DNA from: Thermoplasmata archaeon
GTDB lineage: Archaea > Thermoplasmatota > Thermoplasmata > Lutacidiplasmatales > UBA184
Assembly: GCA_035622275.1 (NCBI GenBank)
Contig: DASPVQ010000007.1
Location: 1 to 64,000, forward strand
Reading direction: 5' to 3'
Length of the DNA stretch: 64,000 nt
Both the position numbers and the translations under genes were made by a program. The notes under the pieces are model-generated. The model made no database searches and was not told the DNA's origin. It saw nothing but the letters and a program-made list of their open reading frames with translations. Shown here one piece after another: positions 141-16,448 of this stretch; position 1 is the stretch's first letter; every line of letters starts with the position of its first letter.

Positions 141-857
141 CTAGGCGGTGCCCGCGTCCACGCCCGCCGAGGGCACGGAGAGCTCCGGGGGCGCGGGCGC
201 CTCGGCGGGGCTCGCCGGCTCCGCCGACGGGACGTCGTCCGAGATCGTGCCGAGCACCTCCGAGCGCCGGATCTCGATCTTCTTGAGCGGATAGAGGGTC
301 TTGAGACCGTGCGCGAGCACCTTCGACAGCTCGCCCTGCAGCATCTCGCGCACGAACTCTGGGCTCGTGCGGCGCGCGGCCTCCTCGGTGAGGATCGTGA
401 CGATCTGATGACGCAGCTCGGCGCGCAGGCGCGTCTGGAGGCGCTGCTCGCCCACGGCGACCGGCTTCAACACGAAGCCGACGCCGTCCTTCGTCGTGAC
501 GCGGAAGGAGGTGTCGATCTTCGAGCGCTTGCGCCGCGCGAGCCGGCGCACGAAGTCCGAGGTGAGCTCGTGTCCGATGAACCGCGCCTCGGCGACGCCG
601 TCGCCGCCCAGTCGCTCGATCCGGAAGCGGAGCTTCACGTGGGCCTTCGCGGCGTCCGCCGCTCCGGAGAGTTCCGGCAGGGTGGTCTCGAGCGTCCGGC
701 CGACCACCTGCTCGGGCTCGGTCGCGACGGTCTCGCCGAGCTCGACGTGCTGGAAGATCCCGGGCGCGCGGACCTTGAACCAGTGTTTCGAGCGCCACTT
801 GTCCTTGACCGTGCGCGCCAGCGCCGGCTTCTTGGCCGGCGTCTCCTTTTCCGCCAT
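141..857 (-). CDS. rps3ae: 30S ribosomal protein S3Ae (eS1)
   Basis: This is the small-subunit ribosomal protein eS1/S3Ae, found in archaea and eukaryotes. The 238-residue protein starts MAEKETP at 857 and contains the family's W(F)KVRAPGIF-type N-terminal motif and a central region with 'DTSFRVTTKDG' and 'RRLARRKRSKID'. It ends in an acidic Ala/Pro-rich tail typical of GC-rich archaea. I chose this ATG because longer versions run into low-complexity Arg/Ser sequence. A TATA-like box (887-895, minus sense) lies about 34 bases upstream, implying a very short leader. The gene is divergent from the AAA ATPase gene and adjoins tRNA-Met. Confidence 0.95.
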   Translation of the reverse strand: MAEKETPAKKPALARTVKDKWRSKHWFKVRAPGIFQHVELGETVATEPEQVVGRTLETTLPELSGAADAAKAHVKLRFRIERLGGDGVAEARFIGHELTSDFVRRLARRKRSKIDTSFRVTTKDGVGFVLKPVAVGEQRLQTRLRAELRHQIVTILTEEAARRTSPEFVREMLQGELSKVLAHGLKTLYPLKKIEIRRSEVLGTISDDVPSAEPASPAEAPAPPELSVPSAGVDAGTA

Positions 858-978
858 CGACCGCGCGGCCGCCGAGCGGGGTTCGCTACTTAACCGTGTC
901 GCGCCGCGCCGAGGAGAAATTCCGCCCGCCGGGGGGCCGCGCGGCAAACTACATAACCCGAACCCAGTTGCGCGCGCC
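858..978. promoter_or_regulatory. divergent promoter region, eS1 and AAA ATPase
   Basis: This 121-base gap separates two divergent genes and holds two AT-rich elements in otherwise GC-rich DNA. Minus-sense TTAAGTA at 887-895 serves eS1. Plus-sense 'aaactacataa' at 946-956 is centred 28 bases before the GTG at 979. The second spacing equals the usual archaeal TATA-to-transcription-start distance, so the ATPase mRNA is probably leaderless. Confidence 0.6.
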
Positions 979-2514
979 GTGGCGACCCCGGGCCTCTCTC
1001 CTCCGTCGCCGGGGACGCACGCGAGCGCCCAGCAGCTGCAGCATGCCCGCGCCAGCGTCGAGAGCCCGGGCGAGCGGTTCCGGCGCGAGATCCTGCGTCG
1101 CCTCGATGAATTTCGCCAGCAGGGGCTCGACCGGAGCGAGGCGATCCGCGAGCTGTTCCCCCGCACCGTGCTGCCCGCGGGCACCTACGACGACCTGATC
1201 ACCGCGCTCGTCTCGGGCGCCCACGTCCTGTTCTTCGGTCCCTCGGGCGCGGGGAAGACGAGCCTCGCCCGGGACCTGTGGGGGATCTTCCCGAAGGAGG
1301 TGTGGGCGATCGACGGCTGCCCGGTCCTCGACCACCCGCTCAGCGTGGTCGATGCCGCGGTCGCCGCGCGCTACCCCCCGTGCCCGATCTGCGAGCGACG
1401 GTTCGCACCGGGAGGCGATCCCGCCCAGTTCCGCCCGGCGGCCGTCGACCCGGCCAAGGTCCCGGCCACGTACGTGACGCTGCGCGAGGGCTTCGGCTAC
1501 GCCCGGCTCCAGGGCTCGAGCGAGGTGTTCCCGGACCACCTGACGGGCAACATCAACCTGCGCAAGCTCGAGGAGGTCGGGGACCCGATGAGCCCGCTCG
1601 TGCTCGAGCCGGGCAAGCTGCTCCAGGCCAACCGTGGCTTCCTGCTCGTCGACGAGATCGGCAAGCTGCCGCTCGGGACGCAGAACGTGCTCCTGCAGGC
1701 CTTGCAGGAGGGCACCGTGACGCCCGCGAAGTCGCGCGAGAGCTTCCCGGGGCTGTTCGTCGCGGTCTGCACGTCGAACCTCTCGGACCTCGACAACATC
1801 AACGACCCGCTCTCCGACCGCCTGACCAGCCTGCACGTCGGCTACAACGACCGCCACACGGACAACGTCCGGATCGTGGCGCTCGCCCGGGCCGACGAGC
1901 CGACCGGCTACCTGCCCGAGATCCTCGTCGACGCGGGGGTCCGGGTGATCGAGGCCTGGCGCCTGCGCATGAGCGAGGACAACCCGGACATCGGCGAGGT
2001 GGGATCGAACCGTACCCTGATCGACGTCGCGCAGCGGACCGCGGCGACCGCGCTGCTCGCGGGCCGGCCGCTCGCGACGAACGCCGACCTCAGGTCCGGC
2101 CTCGTGCACGCGATGCGCGGGCGCATCCGGGCGCGGAGCGGCGACTCGTTCCGCCAGAACGAGCGACGGGTCGGCGAGTTCATCGACCAGTATCTCGCCC
2201 CCGCGCTCAAGCGCAGCGCCGGCGTCTACTGGTGTCGCTTCTACCGCGGGGTCCTCCACGAGAACGGCGCGGACGCCCAGGCGCTGATCGGCGAGGGCCG
2301 TCGCCTCAAGGACGACGCCGAGATGCGCGGCCAGCTCGCCGCCGACGGGCCCCTGTTCCCGAAGTTCCGCCCGTTCGTCCGGTACGTCGCCGACCGCGAG
2401 CGTCCGCCGGCCTCCCTCGTGCCGAGCGACGTCGCCGTGCACGCCTTCCGTCTGCTCGAGGAGCACTCGCTCTTCACCTGCACGGACGAGGACGACGACG
2501 ACGCCCCCCTCTAG
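979..2514 (+). CDS. AAA+ ATPase, PrkA/ChlI-like
   Basis: This 511-residue protein is an AAA+ ATPase with Walker A GPSGAGKT (87-94) and Walker B LLVDE (222-226). Between them it has 'GCPVLDHP' (113-120) and a CPIC knuckle (135-138). The 'GCPxxxxP' block followed by a Cys-rich insert and an 'LTGNI..RKLEE' segment recalls the AAA module of PrkA/YeaG serine kinases. The Walker B region ('GFLLVDEIGKLP') is closer to ChlI/MoxR ATPases. No kinase domain was recognised. The C-terminus ends in an acidic run. The GTG at 979 is chosen because a TATA-like box lies 28 bases upstream and upstream sequence is antisense to eS1. It is followed by a VWA gene, the partner expected for such ATPases in remodelling or metal-insertion complexes. 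The substrate is unknown. Confidence 0.85.
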   Translation: MATPGLSPPSPGTHASAQQLQHARASVESPGERFRREILRRLDEFRQQGLDRSEAIRELFPRTVLPAGTYDDLITALVSGAHVLFFGPSGAGKTSLARDLWGIFPKEVWAIDGCPVLDHPLSVVDAAVAARYPPCPICERRFAPGGDPAQFRPAAVDPAKVPATYVTLREGFGYARLQGSSEVFPDHLTGNINLRKLEEVGDPMSPLVLEPGKLLQANRGFLLVDEIGKLPLGTQNVLLQALQEGTVTPAKSRESFPGLFVAVCTSNLSDLDNINDPLSDRLTSLHVGYNDRHTDNVRIVALARADEPTGYLPEILVDAGVRVIEAWRLRMSEDNPDIGEVGSNRTLIDVAQRTAATALLAGRPLATNADLRSGLVHAMRGRIRARSGDSFRQNERRVGEFIDQYLAPALKRSAGVYWCRFYRGVLHENGADAQALIGEGRRLKDDAEMRGQLAADGPLFPKFRPFVRYVADRERPPASLVPSDVAVHAFRLLEEHSLFTCTDEDDDDAPL

Positions 2515-2527
2515 CGACGCGATCGAG

Positions 2528-4303
2528 CTGCCCGACTGCTCCGCGTTCACCGACGACGTCCGCTCCGAGGACCTGCTCGACGCGATCGACCGCTCGCGCC
2601 TCATCCGGGCGCTCGCCGAGGAAGGCGTCGCCGGCGCCCAGCGGCTCGTGCGCGAGAATGCCGAGAGCGACCAGGAGCTCAAGTCCCGCCTCGCCCGCCT
2701 GCGCGAGCGCTTGGCGCAGCAGGCGCGGCGGCGCGTCGCGCGCCTCGTCGGCGACTACGACCGCCGCCTCGACGAGCTCGACGTGCGCTCGCAGCGCAGC
2801 GACGACGAGGTCGCCCGACGGATCGCGGAGCTCGAGGGTCGACTGAAGGCGGCGCGGTCGATCGATTGGTCCCGGCTGCCCGCGGACCTCTTCGACGAGG
2901 TCCAGACAGCCCTCCTTCTCCCGTCGGCGTCGTGGAACCAGCCCCCGCCGCGGCCCGGGATCTGGGCGAGGATCCGGGCCGCGTTCGCCCGCCTCGCCGC
3001 CTGGTTCGCCCGCCTGTTCGGCCGGGGTCGGACGGTCGCGCCGGCCCGCACCGAGCGACGGGTTCCGATCGCGATCGCGACCTCGGAGGGCCGCGCGCTC
3101 GGCGCCTCCGAGCTCGGGGAGGCGCTCGCGCACCTCTCCGGGCCCCAGAAGGAGGAGCTGAGCGGCGCGGTCAGCCGACACCTGGCGCAGGAGGAACGCG
3201 AACTGGCGCGCGCGGCCGAGGCGAAGCGCCGGGAGGCCGAGCGCCAGCGCCGGCAGCTCGAGGAAGAGCGACGCGAGGCGGCCCGCCGGGCGGAGGCCGA
3301 GACGGAGGCGCGGATCCGGGCGGCCGAGGAGGGGCGGGTCGAGCGGGAGCTCAAGGAGCGGGGGTTCGTCGCCGAGCGCGGAGGCGAGCTCGCGGTCACC
3401 TACGGCCTCGTGGAGCGCTTCGCGCGGCTCCTCCTCGAGGAGGAGAGCCACCGGCTCCCGGGCGACGTGCGGCTGAGCCTGCGCGGCGGCGCGTCGACCG
3501 GGGTCTACGAGAAGGCGCGGCTGTTGCGCGCCGAGGAGGTCGCCCACATCGACCTGCCGAGCTCGCTGCTCGCCGCCCGGCTCGCGGGCCAGCGCCACAT
3601 CGACGAGTCCACGAGCTACGTCTTCCGGGAGGTGACGAGCGAGCGGGTCCACGTCGTCCTCGCCTTCGACCGCTCGGGCAGCATGGAGGAAGGCGGCAAG
3701 CTCGAGGCCGCGAAGAAGGCGCTGCTCGCGCTCTACGTGGCGATCCGGCGGCGCTACCCGGACGCGACCGTGGACGTGTTCGCGTTCGACAACGAGGTCC
3801 GGGTGCTCGACCTGGTCGAGCTGTGGGAGTGCGGGGCGGGGGCGTTCACCAACACGGCCGAGGCGCTGCGGGCGGCCCACCTGCTCCTGCAGGCCTCGCG
3901 CGCGAGCCGGCGCGAGCTGTACCTGATCACCGACGGGCTGCCCGAAGCGTACACCGACGAGAGCGGCCGGGTCCGCTCGGGGCAGCTCGACGTCGCGATG
4001 GAGCACGCCCTCCAGCGCGCCCGGGAGCTATCGACCGTCGCCGCGCTGCGCTCGACGATGATCCTGTTGAAGAGCGAGCACCCGGAGTACGAAACGGCCG
4101 CCCGCGCGATCGCGCGGACGATGGGCGGCGAGCTGCTCGTCACGGACCCTGCCCGCCTCGGGGTCGAGCTCCTCGTGCGCTGGGCGCACGGGGTCGAGGT
4201 CGAGCGCCGGGTCGCCGCGCCCGCCCCGCCGGCCCCCCCGGCCGCGGCTCCCCCGGCGGGCACCAGGCGCCGTCGCCGCGCCGACCGGCGCATGGGCGGC
4301 TGA
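2528..4303 (+). CDS. VWA-domain protein, partner of the AAA ATPase
   Basis: The C-terminal half is a von Willebrand A domain with an intact MIDAS. DRSGS is at about residue 341 counted from the GTG at 2648, and a downstream Thr (FTNT) and 'LITDG' follow. A highly charged, probably coiled-coil stretch (about 175-240) precedes it, and the protein ends in a Pro/Ala-rich basic tail. The reading frame shows strong coding composition back to about 2513, but the first ATG/GTG/TTG is at 2648. I therefore place the start at CTG 2528 as a hypothesis (591 residues). Alternatives are GTG 2648 or a +1 frameshift from the ATPase at the C-run 2506-2511. AAA plus VWA pairs usually act together, with the VWA protein binding the target through a metal ion. 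Confidence 0.8.
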   Translation: MPDCSAFTDDVRSEDLLDAIDRSRLIRALAEEGVAGAQRLVRENAESDQELKSRLARLRERLAQQARRRVARLVGDYDRRLDELDVRSQRSDDEVARRIAELEGRLKAARSIDWSRLPADLFDEVQTALLLPSASWNQPPPRPGIWARIRAAFARLAAWFARLFGRGRTVAPARTERRVPIAIATSEGRALGASELGEALAHLSGPQKEELSGAVSRHLAQEERELARAAEAKRREAERQRRQLEEERREAARRAEAETEARIRAAEEGRVERELKERGFVAERGGELAVTYGLVERFARLLLEEESHRLPGDVRLSLRGGASTGVYEKARLLRAEEVAHIDLPSSLLAARLAGQRHIDESTSYVFREVTSERVHVVLAFDRSGSMEEGGKLEAAKKALLALYVAIRRRYPDATVDVFAFDNEVRVLDLVELWECGAGAFTNTAEALRAAHLLLQASRASRRELYLITDGLPEAYTDESGRVRSGQLDVAMEHALQRARELSTVAALRSTMILLKSEHPEYETAARAIARTMGGELLVTDPARLGVELLVRWAHGVEVERRVAAPAPPAPPAAAPPAGTRRRRRADRRMGG

Positions 4304-5791: not shown

Positions 5792-7555
5792 TTATCGCGC
5801 GGGCACCGGCGGAGCGGTGGGGGCCGGGGTGCGCCCCTTCGCGAGCTCGGCGCGGGCTTCGGCGAGCGCCTTGTCCGGCTCCTTGTAGTAGAAGGCGACG
5901 ACGCGCCCGACGTCCCGGTGCGTGAACGGCTTCAGGCGGGTCGCCTGGCTGTCGCGGAAGACGAGGTACTCGAGCAGCTCGACGCGGTTGCGCACCTCGC
6001 GCTCCATCTCCTTCATCGAGAGGTTCTTCATCAGCGCGACCCGCTCGTAGACGTAGGAGTGGCCGCTGTAGAGGAACGTGTCGTCCGCCGGGTTCCAGGA
6101 GTAGACCGAGTTCGTGATCAGCTCGTTCGTCTCGGGATCGAGCCCGACGATCTCGGTGAGCGACTGCACGCGGCGGGTCATCTTCGTCCCGACCTTGACC
6201 TGGCGCTGCAGCAGGACCAGGCTCAGCGCGCTCACGAGCGAGCGGGGCAGCGAGATCGGCGGGTTCTCCATGCGGTGGACCATCGCGCTCACGCTCTCGG
6301 CGTGGAAGGTCGTGTAGCAGGTCTTCCCCGTCGCCATCGCCTGGAAGACGATGAACGCCTCGGCCCCGCGGACCTCCCCGACCATGAGGTACTGGGGGCG
6401 CTGGCGCAGCGCCGCGGCGAGGAGGTCGAACATGTCGATCTCGCCCGGGGCCTTGCCGCTCGTGATGTTCTTCGCGCCGAAGCCGGCGCGCGTGAGCGAC
6501 GGCACCCAGTTCTCGTGCGGCAGGTTGAGCTCGCGGGTGTCCTCGATGCTGACGATCTTCATCTGGGGCGGGATGAACAGCAGCGTCGCGTTGAGCGTGG
6601 TGGTCTTGCCGCTCGCGGTCCCGCCGCAGACCATCATCGACTGGCCGTTCTCGATAGCGATCCAGAGGTAGGCCATCATCTCCGGGCTCATCGTCTTGAA
6701 CTTCAGCAGGTCGACCGGCGTGAACGGGTTGTCGCGGAACCGCCGGATCGTGAACGAGCTGCCGCGCTTGGTCACGTGCGTGCCCAGCGTCGCCTGCAGC
6801 CGGGAGCCGTCGGGGACGGTCGCGTCCAGGATCGGGCTCGCGACGCTGATGTGCTTGCCCGAGCGCTGGGCGAGCCAGACGACGTAGTCGTCGAGCTCCT
6901 TGGCCTCCTTGAACCGGAGGTTCGAGCGGATCGAGCCGTACTTGCGGTGGTAGATGTAGAGCGGGATCCCGACCCCGTCGCAGGAGATGTCCTCGACCTC
7001 GGTGTCGGTCATCGGGACGTCGACGATCCCGTAGCCGATGAAGTCCCGTTCCAGGTAGTACAGGATCCGGCCCTTCGTCGTCGGGCCCGGCCCGAGCTCC
7101 CACTGCTGGAGCTTGTTGTCGACCATCTTGCGCAGCTCCCGGCGCTTGGTCTCGGGGTCGATCTCGGGCAGGGGCTCGAACTCGTCGATCAGGACCGTGC
7201 GCAGGCGCTCGGTGAGGTCCCGCTCGATCGGCGAGAGCGGCGGCTCGATGACCTCGTAGAGGTACTCGCTGCGGACGTTGTGGTAGGTGATGCGCACGTA
7301 GGAGAAGCCCGGGCGGATCGGCGCGAGGTCGAGCTCCTTCAGCGCGGGATCGTTGAGCGGGGGGACCGGCGTGACCTCGCCCACGCTGCCCTGGCCGCTG
7401 ACGCCGAGCCGGGCGAGCTTGACGGGCCGTGGCTCGCTCGAGCCCTTGCGCAACGACGCCCCCAGGCGCAGCCAGCTCGACGAGCTAGCGCGCTTGCGGC
7501 CGGTCCCGCCGTCCGTCGCCTCGGTCGCGGTGTCGTCCTCGACCTCGCCCGCCAT
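5792..7555 (-). CDS. type II/IV secretion ATPase (GspE/FlaI/TadA family), copy 1
   Basis: This hexameric motor ATPase of a type IV filament has 587 residues. The Walker A is GGTASGKT (311-318), with the Asp box 'SIEDTREL', the family motif 'GEVRGAE', and the His box 'TTFHAES'. A long N-terminal domain (about 1-200) with 'YEVIEPPLS' is shared with the second ATPase of the cluster and is typical of archaeal filament ATPases. It is the last gene of the operon, 12 bases after the second platform gene. Two non-identical ATPases suggest division of labour such as assembly versus disassembly, or two subcomplexes. This is inference. Confidence 0.93.
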   Translation of the reverse strand: MAGEVEDDTATEATDGGTGRKRASSSSWLRLGASLRKGSSEPRPVKLARLGVSGQGSVGEVTPVPPLNDPALKELDLAPIRPGFSYVRITYHNVRSEYLYEVIEPPLSPIERDLTERLRTVLIDEFEPLPEIDPETKRRELRKMVDNKLQQWELGPGPTTKGRILYYLERDFIGYGIVDVPMTDTEVEDISCDGVGIPLYIYHRKYGSIRSNLRFKEAKELDDYVVWLAQRSGKHISVASPILDATVPDGSRLQATLGTHVTKRGSSFTIRRFRDNPFTPVDLLKFKTMSPEMMAYLWIAIENGQSMMVCGGTASGKTTTLNATLLFIPPQMKIVSIEDTRELNLPHENWVPSLTRAGFGAKNITSGKAPGEIDMFDLLAAALRQRPQYLMVGEVRGAEAFIVFQAMATGKTCYTTFHAESVSAMVHRMENPPISLPRSLVSALSLVLLQRQVKVGTKMTRRVQSLTEIVGLDPETNELITNSVYSWNPADDTFLYSGHSYVYERVALMKNLSMKEMEREVRNRVELLEYLVFRDSQATRLKPFTHRDVGRVVAFYYKEPDKALAEARAELAKGRTPAPTAPPVPAR

Positions 7556-7567
7556 CGTTGACCTCGT

Positions 7568-8551
7568 TCAGCCCACGTTGAGGATCGGCACGACGAAGCG
7601 CATCAGGGCCCAGCCGACCGCGAGCATCACGGTGGCGTGCTGCATGCCCTCGGAGATGCGGCCGTTGTAGAGAACGCCCGCCATGATCCCGTCGCCGACC
7701 GCGTGCACGATCACCGCGACCATGAACGCGAGGAACAGCACGGGCACGAGCGTGAAGCTGAGGCTGATCGCGCCGGCGCCCGAGAGGCTCGAGGTCGAGA
7801 CCGCCTGGCCCGCCGTGATCATCTGCGGCAGGAAGACCGCCGCCATGATGTAGATCGTGACGAGGAAGACGAAGAACGCGATGTAGATCACCGTCACGTA
7901 GGTGAGCATCGAGATCTGGCGCGCCTGGGCCGCGAGCTGGCTCTCGCGGGTGTCGTGGGCGACCATCGTCAGCACGTCCGCGACGTTCCCGCCGGCCTCG
8001 TTGGCCCGCGTGACGATCGAGACGACCCGCTGGACGAGCGGGGTCGGCACGCGCTCCTCGAAGAGCCGCAGCGCGGTCGCGACCGGCACGCCCCACTCGA
8101 GCTGGCTGGCCATCTTCTTGATCTCGTCGGTGAGCAGGCCGTAGCGCCCGCCGCTCGCCACGACGATCGCGTCCGGCAGCGTCATCCCGAAGCGGCCGGC
8201 TTCCGCGACGTCGCGCAGGAAGTCGGGCAGGCGCTCCTCGATCTTGGAGATGCGGCGCATCTTGGCGCTCATCGCGAAGCCGTAGGGCGCGAGCAGGGCG
8301 AGCAGGCCGAGGACGAGGAAATCGATCGCCGGGTTGGCCCCGGCCCCCTCGCCGGGCCGGAAGATGATCGTGAGCGTCCCGACGTAGTTGAGCGCCGCCA
8401 GCACCCACATCACGATCGCGACGCCGGTGCCCGCGTAGAGGAGCAGCATCTCGCGGCTGAGCGCGGTCTCCTCCGCGGCCGACGCCTCGACCCCGGTGAG
8501 CGCCTTCATCCGCCGCACGCTCGCGGTGCCCGTCGCCGCCTGCGTCGCCAT
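7568..8551 (-). CDS. type II secretion F-domain membrane protein (TadC-like)
   Basis: This 327-residue inner-membrane platform protein has two membrane segments near the N-terminus, a cytoplasmic helical T2SSF domain ('LPDFLRDVAEAGRFGMTLPDAI', here shortened) and two or three C-terminal membrane segments. Canonical archaeal platform proteins (FlaJ/ArlJ) carry two such domains in one chain of about 550 residues. Here each gene carries one, as in bacterial TadB/TadC and methanogen Epd systems. Its ATG directly follows the stop codon of the upstream gene (TAG then ATG), so translation is coupled. Confidence 0.88.
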   Translation of the reverse strand: MATQAATGTASVRRMKALTGVEASAAEETALSREMLLLYAGTGVAIVMWVLAALNYVGTLTIIFRPGEGAGANPAIDFLVLGLLALLAPYGFAMSAKMRRISKIEERLPDFLRDVAEAGRFGMTLPDAIVVASGGRYGLLTDEIKKMASQLEWGVPVATALRLFEERVPTPLVQRVVSIVTRANEAGGNVADVLTMVAHDTRESQLAAQARQISMLTYVTVIYIAFFVFLVTIYIMAAVFLPQMITAGQAVSTSSLSGAGAISLSFTLVPVLFLAFMVAVIVHAVGDGIMAGVLYNGRISEGMQHATVMLAVGWALMRFVVPILNVG

Positions 8552-9508
8552 CTACACCATCTCCTGCGCCAGCGTGTACATGAAGAAGATGAACCCGAAC
8601 TGCGAGAGCGGGATCATCGCGCCCACGATCCCCCACAGGACGTCGATCATGAACGTCCCGCCGCCGCCGATCACCGCGAAGATCGCGATGATGATGACGA
8701 GGAAGAGCGGGAAGGCGACCACGACCGTCACGAACGTCTCGGCGAGCAGGCCCATCGTCTCGACGCGCTGCAGCTGCGCGAGCTTGTTCTCGCGCTCGTA
8801 CTGCTCGGCCTTCAACAGGAAGTACGGCTTGAGCTGGCCGCCGCTGGTCGCCGTCGTGACGACGCCCTGCAGGAAGTCCTGGAAGCGCTTGGAGGGACTG
8901 CGCTGCGCGCCGTTGCGGATCGCGGTCAGGATGTCGACGCCGAGCAGCTCGGTGTCGCGCGTGATCCAGGCCGCCTCCTCGGCGACCTCGCCGTAGATCT
9001 TCTGCCGGCCGAGCTCCTTGAAGATCTGGTCGACGTTCACGTCGGCCGACGCCATCGCGCTGACGAAGCTCATCGCGGGGCTGATCTTCTGGTCGATCTT
9101 GCGCCCCCGGGCCTTCGCCGTCGAGCCCGGCGTGCTCGGCATCGCGAAGAACGTGCCGATCGGGGCGAGGAGCGGCAGCGCGATGCCGATGAGCAGCGCG
9201 AAGATCAGCTGGCCCGAGAGGTAGAAGAGGAAGCCGACGGCGACGCCGACCACGATCGCGACCGCGGCGACCACGACCGTCGTCGCGTAGACGGTCGCCA
9301 TGTACTCGTCGGCGCGGATGCGCATGTGCGCCTTGACCAGGTTCTCCTCGAGCGTCGGGTCCGGCGGGTGGGCGAGCACCCGGTTGCGGAAGGTGCGCCA
9401 GGCCCAGCGCTGGAACGGCGAGAGCGTCGAGTGCGCCGGCTGCTCGCCCCGCTTGAGGCGCACCGTCCGCGCGGCGGCCTCCGGCGCGTCGGCGTCCCGG
9501 GCGGCCAC
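8552..9508 (-). CDS. type II secretion F-domain membrane protein (TadB-like)
   Basis: The 318-residue membrane protein is the first of two half-size platform subunits. It has a basic N-terminal region, two close hydrophobic segments (about residues 75-125: 'VVVAAVAIVVGVAVGFLFYL' region), a cytoplasmic helical T2SSF domain with 'LGRQKIYGEVAEEAAWI', and two C-terminal hydrophobic segments. The GTG start at 9508 overlaps the TAG of the upstream ATPase by one base (TAGTG). The pair probably forms a heteromeric platform through which the ATPase acts on pilins. Confidence 0.88.
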   Translation of the reverse strand: MAARDADAPEAAARTVRLKRGEQPAHSTLSPFQRWAWRTFRNRVLAHPPDPTLEENLVKAHMRIRADEYMATVYATTVVVAAVAIVVGVAVGFLFYLSGQLIFALLIGIALPLLAPIGTFFAMPSTPGSTAKARGRKIDQKISPAMSFVSAMASADVNVDQIFKELGRQKIYGEVAEEAAWITRDTELLGVDILTAIRNGAQRSPSKRFQDFLQGVVTTATSGGQLKPYFLLKAEQYERENKLAQLQRVETMGLLAETFVTVVVAFPLFLVIIIAIFAVIGGGGTFMIDVLWGIVGAMIPLSQFGFIFFMYTLAQEMV

Positions 9509-11178
9509 TAGCTCGCCTCCTCCGCGGCCGGCGGCGCCCCGGCCGAGACCCGCTGGAGGACCTCGTTCGGGTCGCGGTAGTACTGCGCGATCGTCCTCCA
9601 GAGCTGACGGTAGTCGGTGATCTGGTTCTGGACGAGGTAGCGGATCACCGCGGTCCGCCGCTGGAACTCGGCATCCATCTCGTCCGGCGTGTAGTTCTTG
9701 AGTTCCATGATCTTGTCAAAGAGGAACGAGTGGCCCTTGAACACGAAGCCGTCGGTGGACGGGTCCCACTCGTAGACGGTGTTGGTGATCAGCTCGTTCG
9801 TCTCGGGCTCGAAGCCGACGATCTCGAGCACCTGCTTGAGCCGACGGACGACGCCCTTGTCGGTACGCGTCTGGATCTGGATGATGACGTTGTTGAGCGC
9901 GCTCAGCAGGATGCGGGGCGTGTTGATCGGCGGGTTCTCGAGGCGGTTGACCATCGACTTCACGCTGTCGGCGTGCATCGTCGAGTAGGTCGTGTGGCCC
10001 GTGGCCATCGCCTGGAACATCGTGTAGGTCTCCTTGCCGCGGACCTCGCCGACGATGATGTAGTTCGGGCGCTGGCGCAGGGCCGCGCGCACGAGGTCGA
10101 ACATGTCGACCTCCCCCGCGGCCTTGCCGTCCGGGCCCCGGTCGCCCGTCCCGCTGCGGGTCGCGCCGGGGATCCAGTTCTCGTGCGGCAGGTTGACCTC
10201 GCGGGTGTCCTCGATGCTGACGATCTTCGCCGTCGGCGGGATGAACAGCGCGACCGCGTTGAGGGTGCTCGTCTTGCCGGCGGCCGGGCCGCCGCAGATG
10301 ATCACCGACTCCCCCTGCTCAGCCGCGAGCCAGAAGTAGGCGACCATCTCCTCGTTCGCGCTGCCCATGAGGACGAGGTCGACCGGGGTGAACGGCCGTT
10401 CCTTGAACCGCCGGATCGTGAAGCTCGCGCCGCGCGTGGTGACCTCGCGCGCGTACGTCGCCTGGACGCGGTGGCCCTCGGGCGTCGTGCCGTCGAGGAT
10501 CGGCGCGCTCACGCTGACCGCCTTCGAGCAGCGCTGCCCGAGCATGACGATGAACGAGTTCGTGGACTCCTCGTCGGGGAAGACGACGTTCGTCTTCACC
10601 GACTCGTACTTCGAGTGGAAGATGAACAGCGGCACGTCCACGCCGTCGCAGGAGATGTCCTCGACCTCGGGGTCGCGGATCAGCGCGTCGACCGGCCCGT
10701 AGCCGACGAAGTCGCGCAGGACGTAGTAGATGATGCGCTCGGTCGAGATCGGGCTCAGCGAGATGCCGCGGCTGGCGAAGTACGCCTCCGCCTCCCCGCG
10801 CAGGTAGGCGCGCTTGTCGGCGCCCGAGAGGTTGTTGACCTCGCTCCCGAGGATCATCGCCAGCGTCGCCTTCACGTGCTCGACCAGCTCCTTTTCGCGG
10901 GGCGTCAGCTGCGGCTCGATGACCTCGTAGAGGTACTCCTTCGAGCGGTCGTTGTAGCTCACGCGGGAGTAGGAGTACGGCGGGTTCACCGCGCTGATCT
11001 CGAGCTCCTTCATCGACGGCTCGGCCAGCGGCGGCATCGCCGTGATGAACGTCCCCGGCACGTCGGTCGGGGTCTCGAGCGGCCGCGCGCCGCCCGCGAG
11101 CGGCGGGGCCTCCGCACCGGTCCCGCCGGCGCGGGGGATCTTGACCCGGACGGAATCGCTCGCCACGGCGCTAGGCAC
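9508..11178 (-). CDS. type II/IV secretion ATPase (GspE/FlaI/TadA family), copy 2
   Basis: The 556-residue motor ATPase is clearly homologous to the one at the operon's end. Walker A is GGPAAGKT (296-303), followed by 'SIEDTREV', 'GEVRGKE' and a 'STMHADS' His box. It shares the N-terminal 'YEVIEP.LTP' segment. It starts at GTG 11178, overlapping the pilin gene by eight bases. A second in-frame GTG at 11166 is possible. Its position between pilin and platform genes suggests it is the primary assembly motor, with the more distal copy as a second motor. That assignment is inferred from gene order only. Confidence 0.93.
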   Translation of the reverse strand: MPSAVASDSVRVKIPRAGGTGAEAPPLAGGARPLETPTDVPGTFITAMPPLAEPSMKELEISAVNPPYSYSRVSYNDRSKEYLYEVIEPQLTPREKELVEHVKATLAMILGSEVNNLSGADKRAYLRGEAEAYFASRGISLSPISTERIIYYVLRDFVGYGPVDALIRDPEVEDISCDGVDVPLFIFHSKYESVKTNVVFPDEESTNSFIVMLGQRCSKAVSVSAPILDGTTPEGHRVQATYAREVTTRGASFTIRRFKERPFTPVDLVLMGSANEEMVAYFWLAAEQGESVIICGGPAAGKTSTLNAVALFIPPTAKIVSIEDTREVNLPHENWIPGATRSGTGDRGPDGKAAGEVDMFDLVRAALRQRPNYIIVGEVRGKETYTMFQAMATGHTTYSTMHADSVKSMVNRLENPPINTPRILLSALNNVIIQIQTRTDKGVVRRLKQVLEIVGFEPETNELITNTVYEWDPSTDGFVFKGHSFLFDKIMELKNYTPDEMDAEFQRRTAVIRYLVQNQITDYRQLWRTIAQYYRDPNEVLQRVSAGAPPAAEEAS

Positions 11179-12268
11179 CTCCGACCCCGATCCCCATCTG
11201 GACGCCGGCCTGATAGAAGACCGCGTAGTTGACGTTGGTCACGGTCAGGATCAGGACCGTCGTCCCCCCGTTGGCGAGGTTGCAACCGGTCCCCTGGGTC
11301 GTGTAGTTGCCGACCGCCGTCCCGGGGTAGGCGGGGGCCCACGGCTTGCCCGAGACGGTCCAGGAGTACTGGGCGTGGTCGCCGAGCGGCAGCCCGCTCT
11401 GGTTCCAGACCAGGTTGTTGAGCATCGAGCCCCAGGCGCACGGGTTCTGGGTCCCGATCTCGAAGGTGTAGGTGAAGCGCGCGTAGGTGAAGGTGGTCCG
11501 GCTGTAGCCGTTGGAGACGATCTGGTTGGAGTAGCGCAGGTGGCTGTAGATCTCCTGCGAGCCCGTTCCGATGACGCTCGTCGAGTTGCCGTAGAGCTGC
11601 AGCAGGCTGTCCCAGACGGTGATGTTGCCGGCGATGTTGGTGACGTTCAGGGGCGGCGGGACCGCCATCACCTCGTGGCCCCCGCCCTGGCTCTGGATCA
11701 CCGCGTCGTCCTCGAAGAAGAACGTCTGCGGCGAGTAGTAGCGGTTCGGCAGCGCGAACTCGAGCACGCCGGTCGGGATCTCGGCGTAGTACGGGCCCGA
11801 TCCGCCCGGGCCGCTCGAGAGCGTGATGTTGGAGAAGACGCAGTAGTTGGGCGTCTCGGGCTGCCCGACCGGGATCGTGGCGTTCGCGCTCGTCGCGGTG
11901 GCGAACCCCTTCGGGCAGATCTGCGGCAGGAACGTCAGCGTGCCCTGCGTCGGCTGGGCGAGGAGCGGCACGGAGTCGGAGCTGATCTGGACGGGCAGCC
12001 CGTAGGTCTGCGGCGCCCCGAGGACGTACTGGGAGTCGATCGAGGACTTGAGCAGCCCGAAGCTCGCCGCGGCGTTCGCCGTGAACTGCGCCTCGTTGTC
12101 GCTCATCCAGAGCGGCACGTACTGGGTGAGGAAGATGCCGAAGAGCGCGAAGAAGACCAGGAGGGCGAGCAGGGTGCCGATCACCGCGACGACGCCGCGG
12201 CGGCTCTCCCGCAGCCGGCGGGCCCGACGGAATCTCCGCCGAGCGGTCGCGCTGCTCGCTCCCCCCAT
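11171..12268 (-). CDS. large archaeal type IV pilin-like protein
   Basis: The 365-residue protein has an Arg-rich N-terminus and then 'SRRGVVAVIGTLLALLVFF', the pattern of archaeal pilins with prepilin peptidase cleavage after Gly and a hydrophobic assembly helix. The rest (about 55-365) is an extracellular domain rich in Tyr, Asn, Ser and Thr with seven N-x-S/T sequons (for example NATI, NITL, NVTN, NYTT), consistent with N-glycosylation on the cell surface. It is much larger than typical major pilins, so it may be a minor or tip pilin or an adhesin. It is the first gene of the filament operon and overlaps the ATPase that follows. Confidence 0.85.
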   Translation of the reverse strand: MGGASSATARRRFRRARRLRESRRGVVAVIGTLLALLVFFALFGIFLTQYVPLWMSDNEAQFTANAAASFGLLKSSIDSQYVLGAPQTYGLPVQISSDSVPLLAQPTQGTLTFLPQICPKGFATATSANATIPVGQPETPNYCVFSNITLSSGPGGSGPYYAEIPTGVLEFALPNRYYSPQTFFFEDDAVIQSQGGGHEVMAVPPPLNVTNIAGNITVWDSLLQLYGNSTSVIGTGSQEIYSHLRYSNQIVSNGYSRTTFTYARFTYTFEIGTQNPCAWGSMLNNLVWNQSGLPLGDHAQYSWTVSGKPWAPAYPGTAVGNYTTQGTGCNLANGGTTVLILTVTNVNYAVFYQAGVQMGIGVGGA

Positions 12269-12409
12269 TCGACGAACCGGCCGGTGCCCGAAGGCCCGGG
12301 CATCGGGAATTTAGCCCGGTCCGACTATAAATATATGCCCGAACGCGAGCGCGCGCACGAGCGCGTAGGCCGTCGAACCTTTACGCGCGCGTCCCTTCTC
12401 GGGACCCGG
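12269..12409. promoter_or_regulatory. divergent promoter region, pilin operon and ACT gene
   Basis: Three AT-rich elements lie between the two divergent genes. 'aatttag' (12308-12314) and the strong 'tataaatatat' (12326-12336) can act on the minus strand for the pilin operon, giving leaders of roughly 15-35 bases. 'acctttacg' (12377-12385) is centred 29 bases before the ATG of the ACT-domain gene. The 12326-12336 box is the most AT-rich stretch seen between genes in this window, which suggests a strong or regulated promoter. Confidence 0.55.
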
Positions 12410-12898
12410 ATGGCGCTCCGCGAGATCTCGCTGACCCTGACCAACCGGCCGGGGGCGCTCGCGGGGGTCGCCCGGATGCTCGCCGCGGAACGGATCAACC
12501 TCGCCGCCGTGAGCGTCGACTCGACCGCGGGGCGCGGGCGGGTCCGCCTGATCGTCAGCGCGCCGGAGCGCGCGCTCGAGCTGCTCCAGCGGGCCGGCTT
12601 CGAGCCGGAGGTCCGAGAGATGATCGCGGTCCGGCTCGAGGACCGCGCCGGCAGCTTCCTCAAGGTCCTCGAGGTGCTCGCCCGGGCCCGCGTGAACCTG
12701 GTGAGCGCGGCGATCCTGGTCGCCCGCGAGGGGAACCAGCCGCTCGTCGCGCTCGGGACGAGCAATCCGGCCCGGGCCCGCACCATACTGGCGCGGGCGG
12801 GCTTCGCGAGCGAGATCGCGGAGGGCGTCGTGTCGAACTCCGATCTCCTCGCCGGCGCGGCGAGCGTGCCGGACGAATCGGTCGGCCTTCTGCTGTAG
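12410..12898 (+). CDS. tandem ACT-domain regulatory protein
   Basis: The 162-residue protein has two ACT-like domains, at about 1-70 ('ISLTLTNRPGALAGVARML..ERINLAAVSV') and about 75-145 ('VRLEDRAGSFLKVLEVLARARVNLVSA'). Each shows the beta-alpha-beta pattern and the conserved Gly at the ligand site. Stand-alone double-ACT proteins bind amino acids and regulate enzymes or transcription. No enzymatic domain is present. The ATG at 12410 is chosen for its TATA-like box 29 bases upstream. An in-frame ATG at 12335 lies inside another AT-rich box and is unlikely. The ligand is unknown. Confidence 0.85.
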   Translation: MALREISLTLTNRPGALAGVARMLAAERINLAAVSVDSTAGRGRVRLIVSAPERALELLQRAGFEPEVREMIAVRLEDRAGSFLKVLEVLARARVNLVSAAILVAREGNQPLVALGTSNPARARTILARAGFASEIAEGVVSNSDLLAGAASVPDESVGLLL

Positions 12899-12953
12899 GG
12901 CCCGGGCCCGCCCCGACAAACCGTAAGAGCGCCGCGTCCTCCGAGGGGGTCGC

Positions 12954-13025
12954 GCGGTTGTGGTCTAGTGGTTAGGACGGTAGCTTCCCAAGCTACCTAC
13001 TCGGGTTCGAATCCCGACAACCGCA
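12954..13025 (+). tRNA. tRNA-Gly (CCC)
   Basis: This is a complete cloverleaf without an intron. The acceptor GCGGTTG pairs with CAACCGC, and the D-arm is GTC..GAC with TAGTGGTTAG. The anticodon stem GTAGC/GCTAC encloses loop TTCCCAA, giving anticodon CCC. The T-arm is TCGGG TTCGAAT CCCGA, and A73 is present. CCA is not encoded. A weak AT-containing stretch (12916-12926) may be its promoter. A second glycine tRNA (GCC) lies at 37854-37927. Confidence 0.96.
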
Positions 13026-13038
13026 TCGGGCCGCCGGT

Positions 13039-13407
13039 CTACCCCGGGCCGAACCAGAACAGGTTCCCATCGGGATCGACGAACTTCGCCTGCCAGCCCC
13101 AGGGCAGCTTCTTCGGCGGCATCGGGAAGCGGACGCCCTGGCGCTTCATGCGGGCGCACACCTTGCGGAACGGCTCGTTCGTGAGCAGCAGGATCCCCGT
13201 GTTGCCGACCTCGGATCGCGGCGGCTTCTTCCCCGGCCCGGCGACCTCGCACAGGTGCAGCTGGAAGCGGCCGGAACGGTCGCCGACCGTGGTCCAATGC
13301 TCGGGCGCGTCTTCGATGACCTTCCAGCCGAGGACCCTGGCATACCACTTCGCGGATCGGCGCCGGTCCTTCACCGCCACCGCCACGGACACGCCCCGGG
13401 TCGACAT
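13039..13407 (-). CDS. VOC (glyoxalase/bleomycin resistance) family protein
   Basis: The 122-residue single-domain protein has the vicinal-oxygen-chelate fold pattern. 'VAVAVKDRRRSAKWYARVLGWKV' (abbreviated here) is the first beta-alpha unit, and 'AKFVDPDGNLFWF' is the signature end of the second. Such proteins dimerise, bind a divalent metal and act as dioxygenases, isomerases or antibiotic-binding proteins. Function cannot be told from sequence. The ATG at 13407 is preferred over an upstream extension rich in Pro/Gly. A TATA-like box (minus sense, 13442-13449) lies about 38 bases upstream. It sits between two tRNA genes. Confidence 0.85.
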   Translation of the reverse strand: MSTRGVSVAVAVKDRRRSAKWYARVLGWKVIEDAPEHWTTVGDRSGRFQLHLCEVAGPGKKPPRSEVGNTGILLLTNEPFRKVCARMKRQGVRFPMPPKKLPWGWQAKFVDPDGNLFWFGPG

Positions 13408-13558
13408 CGCCGTCCCCTCCCGCGCGGGGAGACCCCCCGGCGATTTAGGTGTGCCGGGCACCCATCCGGGGAGGGGGGCGCCCGCGCCGGGGCGGGGGCG
13501 GCCCAGTGCGCCGCGGCAGGGACTCCCGGTCGATCGTGGCGGTCGGCCGGTCCCAAGG

Positions 13559-13665
13559 TCCCGGCTGCCTGACTCGAACAGGCGACCTGAGGATCTCCGC
13601 GGGGGCCGCCGGAGGTCCGGCAGTCTCGCCTACAGTCCCCCGCTCTACCACTGAGCTAAGCCGGG
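13559..13665 (-). tRNA. tRNA-Tyr (GTA) with intron
   Basis: On the minus strand the acceptor CCCGGCT pairs with AGCCGGG. C1-G72 is the identity pair of archaeal and eukaryotic tRNA-Tyr. The D-arm is GCTC/GAGC, the anticodon stem GGGGA pairs with TCCTC, the anticodon GTA lies at 13633-13631, and the T-arm is GCCTG TTCGAGT CAGGC. A 35-base intron (13595-13629) follows position 37. A TATA-like box (13691-13697) is centred 28 bases upstream of the first base. Confidence 0.95.
13595..13629 (-). other. intron of tRNA-Tyr
   Basis: The 35-base insertion lies between anticodon-loop positions 37 and 38. Its removal gives a normal seven-base loop and five-pair stem. It contains a self-complementary GC-rich segment (CCGG...CCGG) compatible with a bulge-helix-bulge splicing substrate. 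Confidence 0.85.
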
Positions 13666-13690
13666 ACGGCCCGAGGAGCGGTCGTCCCGC

Positions 13691-13697
13691 TATAAAC
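13691..13697. promoter_or_regulatory. TATA-like box shared by tRNA-Tyr and phosphatase genes
   Basis: 'tataaac' is centred 28 bases from the 5' end of the minus-strand tRNA-Tyr and 35 bases from the ATG of the plus-strand histidine phosphatase at 13729. It is the only AT-rich element between them, so it may initiate transcription in both directions or serve mainly the tRNA. Confidence 0.55.
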
Positions 13698-13728
13698 TTG
13701 CTGCGCTGCGAGGACGCGGGGCGCGCCG

Positions 13729-14301
13729 ATGCGGACGCTCGAGCACCGGCGGCACAGCCGCCGGGACCCGGCCGGCATCCACCTCAACGCCGCGGGGATC
13801 GCGCTCGCCCGGCGGGTCGCTCGCGATCTGCCGGCCTTTTCCCGCGTGCTGACCTCCCCGAAGCCGCGGGCCGTCGAGACCGCGGAGGCGATGGGCCTGT
13901 CCGTCGACGGTCGGCTGCCGGCGCTCGGCGAGATGCCGGACGACGTGGGGCCCGCGGTCGAGGAGATGGGACCGACGGGCTTCGCCTCGTACGTCGAGTT
14001 CGTGGAGAGGAGCGAGGCGATGCGCGCGTACGCCGAAGGCCAGGCCGATGCGTGGCGGCGCGAGCTCGAGCGGGTGCCCGAGGGCGGCGCCATGCTCCTG
14101 ATCTCGCACGGCGGCATCATCGAGTTCGGGGCGGCCGCCGCGGTGCCGGGGCTCGCGCGCGGCTGGGGCCCCCCGCTCGGCTACCTCGAAGGGATCCGCC
14201 TCGACTGGGACGGAGCGCGCTGGACGGGGGGCGAGATCGTCCGCGTCGGGCCCGCTCGGGCGCCCGCGGCTAGGGGAGGAGCGCGCGCAGGCGCGCCGTG
14301 A
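13729..14301 (+). CDS. histidine phosphatase (phosphoglycerate mutase-like) family
   Basis: The 190-residue protein fits the branch-2 histidine phosphatase pattern. An N-terminal RHS-R variant of the RHG catalytic motif ('EHRRHSRRDP') is followed by 'LTSPKPRAVETAE', where the second Arg binds phosphate, and 'LLISHGG', which carries the second catalytic His. Substrates in this family range from phosphoglycerate to phosphohistidine and small phosphoesters, so the exact role is open. The last 32 bases overlap the convergent adenylate kinase gene, and the C-terminal Ala/Arg/Gly-rich tail probably results from that overlap. Confidence 0.82.
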   Translation: MRTLEHRRHSRRDPAGIHLNAAGIALARRVARDLPAFSRVLTSPKPRAVETAEAMGLSVDGRLPALGEMPDDVGPAVEEMGPTGFASYVEFVERSEAMRAYAEGQADAWRRELERVPEGGAMLLISHGGIIEFGAAAAVPGLARGWGPPLGYLEGIRLDWDGARWTGGEIVRVGPARAPAARGGARAGAP

Positions 14302-14899
14302 CGTCCTCGGGGCGGCCGCGGGCATCGAGCGTGCGGAGGAGCCCGCGCTCGCGGTAGTAGAGGAGGAGCGGCGCCGTCTGTTCCGCGTACACCTTCAGTC
14401 GCGTCTGCACCGCCGCCGGCAGGTCGTCGGGGCGCTGGACGAGCTCGGCGCCCTCCCGATCGCACCGGCCCGGCACGCGGGGAGGCTGGGAGACGACGTT
14501 GTAGACCGACTGGCACGTCGGGCAGACCCGGCGTCCGCTCAGGCGCTCGACCAGCTCCGGGAACGGCAGGTCGAAGGCGATCACCGCGTCCAGGCGCGCG
14601 AAATCGGCGAGCTCCGTCGCCTGAGCAACGTTGCGGGGGAACCCGTCGAGGAGGAAGCCGGCGCGGGCGTCGGGCTGGGCGAGCCGTTCCCGCAGTACCC
14701 CGAGGACGATCGCGTCCGGGACCAGCGCGCCCGCGTCCATGTGACGCTGCGCATCGCGCCCGACCGGAGTTTGAGCGGCGACCGCGGCGCGCAGCATGTC
14801 ACCGGTGGACAGGTGCGGGAGTCCGAGCTCCCGCCCGAGGATCGCGGCCTGCGTGCCCTTGCCGGCGCCGGGCGGTCCGAGGAAGACGACCTGCGCCAT
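14270..14899 (-). CDS. adk: adenylate kinase
   Basis: Adenylate kinase converts ATP plus AMP to two ADP. The 209-residue protein begins 'VVFLGPPGAGKGTQA' (P-loop). It has the NMP-binding 'STGDMLR', the 'LLDGFPRN' motif, and a LID domain with a CPTC...RCD zinc-finger-like arrangement (about 125-150). This is the long bacterial-type form rather than the short trimeric archaeal AdkA, consistent with several Thermoplasmatota. It is read with UMP kinase on the same strand in a nucleotide-kinase pair with a 32-base gap. Confidence 0.95.
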   Translation of the reverse strand: MAQVVFLGPPGAGKGTQAAILGRELGLPHLSTGDMLRAAVAAQTPVGRDAQRHMDAGALVPDAIVLGVLRERLAQPDARAGFLLDGFPRNVAQATELADFARLDAVIAFDLPFPELVERLSGRRVCPTCQSVYNVVSQPPRVPGRCDREGAELVQRPDDLPAAVQTRLKVYAEQTAPLLLYYRERGLLRTLDARGRPEDVTARLRALLP

Positions 14900-14931
14900 C
14901 GGCGGACCCGAGGGGCGCTCGGGTAAAGGGA

Positions 14932-15657
14932 TTACGACGCGCGGCCCGCGTCCTCGACGCGCGAGCCGACGAAGGCGCGACCGCGCAGCGCGGCCTCGAG
15001 GTTGCCCAGATCGCGGCCGTCGACGATCCACAGCGGGATGTTCGCCCGCGCGAGCGTGTCGGCGCCGAGGCGGTCGAAGAGGAAGTTCTGCCCGGCCGCG
15101 CCCGACGTCGCGGCGTGCACGCGCTCGCGGAACTCGGGCCAGGAGAGCCGGTCGATCCGGGTCGCCGTCCGATCCTGGCGCGGGTCCCGCTCGTAGAGGC
15201 CGTCGACGTCGGTGGCGTTGACCAGGCGGGAGGCCCTCAGGCGGGCGGCCACGAGGGCCGCGACGCCGTCGGTCGTGTGGCCGGGCTCCGTGCCGCCCAG
15301 GATCACGGGCGACGCCCGGGCGAGCTCGTGGACGGCCTGGGCGATCGACGCGGGCGGGTGCGCAGGCGTCGGGGGTCCGATGCACGCGGCGAGGAGCCGC
15401 GCGTGCAGGCGCGTGACCTCGATCCCGATCTCGTCGAGCTCGACCTCGGTGAGCCCGAGCTCCCGGCCGAGGCCGATGTACACGCGCGCGGTCCGCCCCC
15501 CGCCGGTCGTCGCGACGATGGGGAACTCGGCGCCCAGCCGCCGCAAGAGGCCGGCGAGCGCGGTCTGGTACTCCCGGTCGCCGTGGCCGGTGAAGAGAAC
15601 GGACCCGCCGATCGAGACGACGACCGGTCGCGCGGCGACCGGGGAGCGGGACGGCAT
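14932..15657 (-). CDS. pyrH: UMP kinase, archaeal type
   Basis: This amino-acid-kinase-fold UMP kinase makes UDP from UMP and ATP. The 241-residue protein shows 'VVSIGGSVLF' (phosphate-binding N-terminus), 'VATTGGGRTARVYIGLGRELGL' (abbreviated), 'LGGTEPGHTTDGVAALVA' and 'NATDVDGLYERDP', all typical of archaeal PyrH. The ending 'NIPLWIVDGRDLGNLEAAL' is also characteristic. It is upstream of adk in a two-gene minus-strand unit and divergent from rpiA, with about 80 bases of promoter region between. Confidence 0.94.
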   Translation of the reverse strand: MPSRSPVAARPVVVSIGGSVLFTGHGDREYQTALAGLLRRLGAEFPIVATTGGGRTARVYIGLGRELGLTEVELDEIGIEVTRLHARLLAACIGPPTPAHPPASIAQAVHELARASPVILGGTEPGHTTDGVAALVAARLRASRLVNATDVDGLYERDPRQDRTATRIDRLSWPEFRERVHAATSGAAGQNFLFDRLGADTLARANIPLWIVDGRDLGNLEAALRGRAFVGSRVEDAGRAS

Positions 15658-15740
15658 CGGCGAGGGGAGGGGGACCGCGGCTTAGGCGTGTCGGCCGATC
15701 GGCCCGTGGGGTTGAATAACCGGGCCCGCTGCGGAGGAGC

Positions 15741-16448
15741 GTGCCCGACGACGCGGAGGCCGCGAAGATCGCCGCCGCGCGGCGGGGTATCGATCTCGTC
15801 CGGCCCGGGATGCGCCTCGCCCTCGGGACCGGATCCACGGCCGCCCACGCCGTTCGGGCGCTCGCCGCGCGGTTCCCTCCCGCGCGGATCGACTGCGTCG
15901 CGAGCTCGCGGGCGACGGAGGAACTCGCCCGGTCGCTCGGGCTCGGCGTGCGGCCCCTTGGTGACGACGACCGCTTCGACCTGATGATCGACGGCGCGGA
16001 CGAGGTCAGCCCGGCGGGCGACCTGACGAAGGGCGGGGGCGGCGCGCTCCTGCGCGAGAAGCTGCTCGCGGGCCTGTCGAAGGAGCTCGTCATCCTCGTC
16101 GACCCGTCGAAGCTCGTCGTCCACCTGGGCGATCGGGTCCCGATCCCCGTGGAGGTCGTGCCGTTCGCCCGGGGGGCGGTCGCCCAACGCCTCGCGTCGG
16201 ACGGCTACCGGGTGTCCGCCCGGCGGGGTCGGGACGGCCGGCCCTTCCTTACCGACAACGGCAACGAGATCCTCGACGTCGCACCCGCGCGCCCGATCGA
16301 CGATCCGGCCGCGACCGCGCGGGCGCTCCGGGCGCCGGTGGGGGTCGTCGAGACCGGGCTGTTCGTCGGCTTCGCGCCGCGCGTGCTCGTCGGCCACCCC
16401 GACGGGCGGGTCGAGGAACGACGCGCCGGCGGACCGGCGCGCGCCTAG
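15741..16448 (+). CDS. rpiA: ribose-5-phosphate isomerase A
   Basis: RpiA interconverts ribose 5-phosphate and ribulose 5-phosphate. The 235-residue protein has 'LALGTGSTAAHAVRAL' (phosphate loop), 'DLMIDGADEVSP' (catalytic Asp/Glu), 'DLTKGGGGALLREK' (catalytic Glu and Lys) and 'NGNEILDV'. The start is GTG at 15741, with a purine-rich GGAGGAG just before it and a TATA-like 'ttgaataac' at 15712-15720. Together with the transketolase/transaldolase operon at 26-28.6 kb it completes a non-oxidative pentose phosphate route. Confidence 0.95.
   Translation: MPDDAEAAKIAAARRGIDLVRPGMRLALGTGSTAAHAVRALAARFPPARIDCVASSRATEELARSLGLGVRPLGDDDRFDLMIDGADEVSPAGDLTKGGGGALLREKLLAGLSKELVILVDPSKLVVHLGDRVPIPVEVVPFARGAVAQRLASDGYRVSARRGRDGRPFLTDNGNEILDVAPARPIDDPAATARALRAPVGVVETGLFVGFAPRVLVGHPDGRVEERRAGGPARA

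Follow-up and report, generated by a model that had tools for sequence, protein, structure and literature searches.

In the open reading frame list for the window—the full 64,000-nucleotide stretch of Thermoplasmata archaeon DNA analyzed here—five co-directional, nearly contiguous genes on the minus strand make up a pilus operon. Its first gene (11171–12268, 365 aa) encodes a large pilin-like protein, a probable minor pilin, with a class III signal peptide (SRRG/VVAVIGTLLALL). This is followed by ATP1 (9508–11178, 556 aa), an ArlI/GspE2-type secretion ATPase recognized by its T2SSE and PilB3_C domains (Pfam), a 409-bit match to FlaI (NCBIfam), and its motifs; by a CdiPFa-like gene for the N-terminal half of a platform protein (8552–9508, 318 aa; one T2SSF domain, E = 2.7e-14); by a CdiPFb-like gene for the C-terminal half (7568–8551, 327 aa; one T2SSF domain, E = 6.4e-19); and by ATP2 (5792–7555, 587 aa), a second secretion ATPase identified by its T2SSE domain (E = 8.7e-34), its identity to ATP1, and the signature residues discussed below. 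In gene order, the first two junctions are overlaps of 8 bases and 1 base, the two platform genes abut, and a 12-base gap precedes ATP2. The layout described in the original prediction—two full, divergent ATPases bracketing two half-size platform genes, with a large pilin-like gene first—is confirmed, and the core motifs of the ATPases are intact. No T2SSE or T2SSF proteins were detected beyond the operon in this 1.73 Mb genome, which is 97% complete.

The product of the N-half platform gene aligns to positions 4–242 of the ArlJ model and that of the C-half gene to positions 271–540 (NCBIfam); because the two genes match the N- and C-terminal halves of ArlJ, the pair is predicted to be one ordinary archaeal ArlJ/AapF-type platform cut in two. 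Just downstream of the operon (window positions 496–4303, plus strand), an AAA ATPase (PrkA/Mg-chelatase/MoxR-like) and a vWA protein are encoded; vWA and MoxR proteins have been described as possible modulators of type IV pili (T4P; PMC4858521). This linkage holds within the genus, including two congeners with divergent pilus proteins (G013 and G019), and the vWA and AAA genes were not found at operon loci of other families. Since the linkage is limited to the genus, these genes are probably only neighbors of the pilus machine and not part of it.

A FlaFind-like motif scan of the window identified a class III signal peptide in the operon's first gene only. An AlphaFold model of the encoded pilin-like protein (pLDDT 77) consists of a 61-residue N-terminal helix followed by an all-beta head, for which a fold search of the PDB returned no significant match. 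The gene is kept in first position across most of the class, at 28–58% identity. It had been called a sequon-rich pilin; the large pilin-like gene is indeed present, and the support for sequon richness is weak, with 7 sequons in the mature protein as compared with 3.6 expected from shuffling (p ~0.04). Two adjacent PilA-type (Pilin_N) genes, of 232 and 499 aa, are found in trans on another contig of the same genome (G000:C2), and matches to PF01917 in this genome all fall below the Pfam cut-off, so that no archaellin gene was identified. The operon protein is probably a minor pilin, with the genes in trans supplying the filament. The longer of the two (G000:C2:26778–28277, 499 aa) is very long for the PilA type, and might serve as a minor subunit or form an adhesive tip. 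At the corresponding locus of another genome (G053, L150), a 1631-aa protein (11401–16296, minus strand) is encoded directly upstream of the pilin-like gene; it combines a pilin-like N-terminal hydrophobic segment with long repetitive extracellular sequence, and is possibly a giant pilin-anchored adhesin.

The presence of distinct pilin types in one genome, together with the ability of archaeal ATPase/TadC modules to share pilins (PMC4858521), might suggest that the two ATPases serve two filaments on a shared platform, one built from the operon's pilin-like protein and one from the PilA-type pilins in trans. However, the genome contains only one platform pair, and in Cuniculiplasma, where both ATPases are retained, the sequence beside the machinery yielded no pilin-like gene; we regard a division of labor between two filaments as very improbable.

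The Pfam model for Peptidase_A24 (PF01478) misses the prepilin peptidase in this genome and hits those of relatives weakly. The resulting impression of a missing peptidase was overturned by a profile built from an alignment of class relatives with Arc_PepC_II and an invariant GGAD.KA motif, which recovered an A24 prepilin peptidase homolog at G000:C1:66461–67348 (E = 2e-96). The gene thus lies elsewhere in the genome, away from the operon, where it had been proposed that one be sought.

ATP1 and ATP2 share 49% identity across 508 aa. Both score ~404–409 bits against the archaellum FlaI model, as compared with 136–141 bits against TadA (NCBIfam), and the closest solved structures are A. fulgidus GspE2 and FlaI. 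On these scores we reject the kinship with Epd/Tad systems that was initially proposed; the operon also lacks a TadZ/FlaH-like gene. Walker A, the ASP box, the Walker B glutamate, and the second HIS-box histidine are intact in both proteins, as are both N-domain arginines and the trans arginine (FlaI R326); dN/dS is ~0.1–0.3 for each ATPase. Judged by these residues, both ATPases should bind and hydrolyze ATP. At two sites the proteins depart from the family consensus: ATP1 has a canonical HIS box (TGH...MHA) and contains PEGHR where PDGSR is expected, while ATP2 has a canonical PDGSR and carries Lys411 in place of the first HIS-box histidine (TGK...FHA).

Both ATPases are broadly distributed. 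An ATPase match at E ≤ 1e-80 was found in 291 of the 390 genomes of the phylum sample, and of the 88 matching genomes that belong to the class, 83 contain two or more, though other filament systems with a single ATPase contribute to some of these counts. The five-gene order is identical in all 80 Thermoplasmata loci recovered by scanning named genomes, as far as contigs reach, a recurrence that argues against chance; ATP2 is present in every locus whose contig extends past the platform genes (66/66). The four machinery genes are also found in class genomes of ~18 families, and families f8, f19, and f24 of the class show the four-gene layout as well. An apparent absence of ATP2 in G053 reflects a run of unread bases at the expected position, and loss of the gene in this genome was dismissed; in G314, ATP1 lies on a different contig from the pilin–platform–ATP2 cluster, with both ATPases retained. 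In phylogenetic trees, the ATP1 sequences of the class fall into one clade and the ATP2 sequences into another, both with near-full support. Co-conservation of the two ATPases, which the original prediction had singled out for testing, therefore holds in every intact class locus examined, none of which keeps only one of the pair. A recent tandem duplication with decay of one copy is likewise ruled out by the 49% identity, the divergent class-wide clades, and the intact core catalytic residues of both proteins.

Several features of this distribution are worth recording in their own right. Within family f8, many near-complete genomes (e.g., G044, G056, and G114) lack pilus ATPases, and two other members, G193 and G410, have the complete operon, in which the HIS box of ATP2 is unchanged. 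Congeners G013 (L173) and G019 (L174) share the operon and its genomic context, but their pilus proteins are only ~42–48% identical to those of the window, as compared with ~60–75% for the flanking genes; this could reflect either in-place replacement of the pilus genes or their sharply accelerated evolution. Several congeners (L156–L161) contain an extra T4P locus with one ATPase, canonical in both PDGSR and the HIS-box histidine; in L160, two platform genes follow the single ATPase. These loci represent a natural single-ATPase control.

Co-retention of ATP1 and ATP2 also fits two separate homo-hexamers, which could alternate on a single platform, one extending the filament and the other retracting it, as do PilB and PilT. 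Intact core catalytic residues in both ATPases, the class-wide maintenance of two divergent clades, and the bacterial precedent are consistent with such antagonists. However, neither ATPase is PilT-like, with scores of only ~39–44 bits against the pilT_fam model (cut-off 319). A second motor is also not required for retraction, as Sulfolobus retracts its Aap pili without a PilT homolog (PMC11178785), and CpaF alone performs both extension and retraction (PMC11300603). Additionally, C. divulgatum, which has the same machinery, did not twitch (PMC12448462), and loss is common among dedicated retraction motors, whereas no intact class locus examined lacked ATP2. Active retraction of the PilT type, one of the functions first suggested for the second ATPase, is therefore not indicated; we consider alternating motors unlikely, and for the same reasons prefer a motor in which the two ATPases are paired.

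The sequence differences between the paralogs are systematic. In an alignment of 103 ATP1 and 83 ATP2 sequences, 21 positions are at least 93% fixed within each paralog yet different between them, and several of these cluster at the HIS box and PDGSR motif, at the nucleotide site. The first HIS-box site reads TGH in all ATP1 sequences (103/103) and TGK in 80 of the 83 ATP2 sequences; PDGSR is kept in ATP2 and replaced by xEGHR or a close variant in ATP1. Among paired loci, the combination of histidine in the ATP1 HIS box and lysine in that of ATP2 occurs in 79 of 82, and that of xxGHR in ATP1 and xxGSR in ATP2 in 82 of 82. Canonical residues are present at both sites in FlaI, A. fulgidus GspE2, CpaF, halobacterial PilB, and the extra single-ATPase loci of congeners, and also in most single-ATPase relatives in the phylum. 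The HIS-box site varies in some lineages: Cuniculiplasma divulgatum and its family have arginine in ATP2 (with mostly PQGHR in ATP1), f8 ATP2 keeps histidine, G013 and G019 ATP2 have glutamine, and f24 shows mixtures of glutamine and histidine, with glutamine in ATP1 in one genus. We found no previous report of these reciprocal signatures.

Comparison with solved relatives suggests where these substitutions may act. The spacing of T393, H395, and H402 in ATP1 equals that of T411, H413, and H420 in PilB, where H413 and H420 hold T411 between them at the interface with the next packing unit and H420 contacts the gamma-phosphate (PMC5424180); by this correspondence, ATP2 would lose the interface histidine and not the gamma-phosphate histidine. 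Counting along the sequence, the PDGSR arginine corresponds to CpaF R223, which contacts nucleotide phosphates in the closed state (PMC11300603). This arginine is kept in both paralogs, and the signature histidine of ATP1 adjoins it. The two paralogs may differ in how neighboring subunits sense each other, though the lysine at the ATP2 HIS-box site may also be a neutral fixed change.

The same site bears on whether ATP2 does mechanical work. All single-ATPase relatives examined have the first HIS-box histidine, which is replaced in most ATP2 sequences, and HIS-box mutations disrupt activity in this ATPase family (PMC5424180); ATP2 might on these grounds be a weak or regulatory, damped paralog, seated on the platform and modulating ATP1 but performing no mechanical work itself. 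All other catalytic residues of ATP2 are kept, however, and its conservation is as strong as that of ATP1, making a purely regulatory role improbable.

The signatures also make the earlier suggestion of a hetero-hexameric motor more specific. ATP1 and ATP2 could assemble into a single hetero-oligomeric ring whose two subunit types cannot replace one another. ATP1 would supply a histidine next to the arginine finger (PEGHR), and ATP2 would swap the interface HIS-box histidine for lysine or arginine, creating two kinds of nucleotide site. We advance this arrangement only tentatively. If true, the PilT/VirB11 ATPase superfamily would include a two-subunit motor that has become fixed throughout an archaeal class.

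Single-ATPase relatives in other families of the phylum already have a split platform, and in the ATPase tree the two-ATPase systems are nested inside these single-ATPase, split-platform systems; the platform therefore split before the ATPase was duplicated. The duplication probably occurred once in the phylum. The ATPases lie directly side by side, ahead of the platform genes, in G079 and G070; G083, G064, and the class have one ATPase on either side of the platform pair. In single-ATPase loci outside the class (L214–L225), the C-half platform gene has an extra N-terminal region of ~230–550 aa. Two-ATPase genomes outside the class have lysine in ATP2, yet retain PDGSR or PEGSR in ATP1. The ATP1 change is therefore not needed for a paired system, and the HIS-box change appears to be the older of the two. 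The lysine HIS box may have arisen once in the phylum: the AU test does not reject this (p = 0.13), although p drops to 0.04 when the L226 single-ATPase row is included. Sampling outside Thermoplasmatota comprised four halobacterial plasmid hits and PDB chains, providing few outgroups for deep branching; an ancestral duplication giving PilB3 and PilB4 has been described previously (PMC4858521). Taken in order, a split platform, an ATPase duplication, a HIS-box change, and a PDGSR change form an evolutionary series that bears on the rise of two-motor systems.

We propose that this operon specifies the machinery that assembles a CdiP-type archaeal type IV adhesion pilus. The A24 peptidase would trim the pilins, the two platform halves would form one platform, and ATP hydrolysis would drive pilin insertion, with both ATPases acting together on the shared platform. 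ATP1, with its canonical HIS box, would be the principal motor; ATP2 would work only with ATP1 on the same platform, whether by sharing mixed rings with it or by acting as a PilU-like partner, and might tune the power, direction, or stability of the filament. The reciprocal signatures favor obligately paired, specialized motors, and PilU provides a precedent for a motor that acts only through its paralog (PMC6762196). On the sequence data, we lean modestly toward a CdiP-type adhesion pilus machine with an obligately paired ATP1/ATP2 motor. Accounts of archaeal pili usually name a single ATPase as the motor, and retraction in Sulfolobus needs no PilT; a lineage-wide two-motor machine with paralog-specific changes at the nucleotide site poses the question of whether the second ATPase is part of a mixed ring, a partner, or an antagonist. 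This question bears directly on cultured C. divulgatum, in which the second ATPase has been found enigmatic by the authors who described CdiP (PMC12448462).

The architecture itself is not new, and its supposed rarity did not withstand comparison: it is general in the class, was previously published for Cuniculiplasma, and a two-ATPase locus is known in Aciduliprofundum. The archaellum (ArlI/ArlJ) and Aap (AapE/AapF) systems share homologous ATPase and platform proteins with the window operon, but have one ATPase and one fused platform. Bacterial PilT/PilU offer a functional parallel, as two paralogous motors of which one acts only with the other (PMC6762196), but belong to the bacterial PilT subfamily and accompany a separate PilB assembly motor. 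Epd/Tad systems likewise have a platform of two single-T2SSF proteins (PMC6668835); they differ in having one ATPase of another branch, an adjacent TadZ/FlaH-type secondary ATPase, and short pilins. No such secondary ATPase is present in the window operon, and its downstream neighbor is a DNA methylase. The Aciduliprofundum locus, known here only from the descriptions in PMC4858521 and PMC5155288, has two distinct ATPases, a TadC-type platform, and placement in euryarchaeal Clade 2; two ATPases in one locus were reported for Aciduliprofundum boonei (PMC4858521).

The closest counterpart is that of C. divulgatum, and the window operon is a member of this CdiP-type machinery. In strain S5, the secretion ATPases CSP5_0712 and CSP5_0715 were described as flanking CSP5_0713–0714, homologs of FlaJ2 and FlaJ1, and were compared with Aciduliprofundum (PMC5155288, 2016); subsequent work named CdiPE1/E2 and CdiPFa/Fb, solved the pilus, and observed no twitching (PMC12448462, 2025). 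We confirmed the ATPase–platform–platform–ATPase order in S5 (G149, L233). The S5 ATP1 scores 551 bits against the ATP1 profile versus 503 against that of ATP2, the S5 ATP2 scores 538 bits against its own profile versus 470 against the other, and the signature sites read PQGHR in ATP1 and IGR in ATP2; both ATPases are therefore one-to-one orthologous to CdiPE1 and CdiPE2. The two systems share four machinery genes in the same order, a platform split at the same point, and pilins in trans as an adjacent pair. The CdiP type is further characterized by an operon free of an AapX homolog; the window operon consists of its five genes only. They differ in that the window operon is headed by a large pilin-like gene, and in that its ATP2 has lysine where Cuniculiplasma has arginine.
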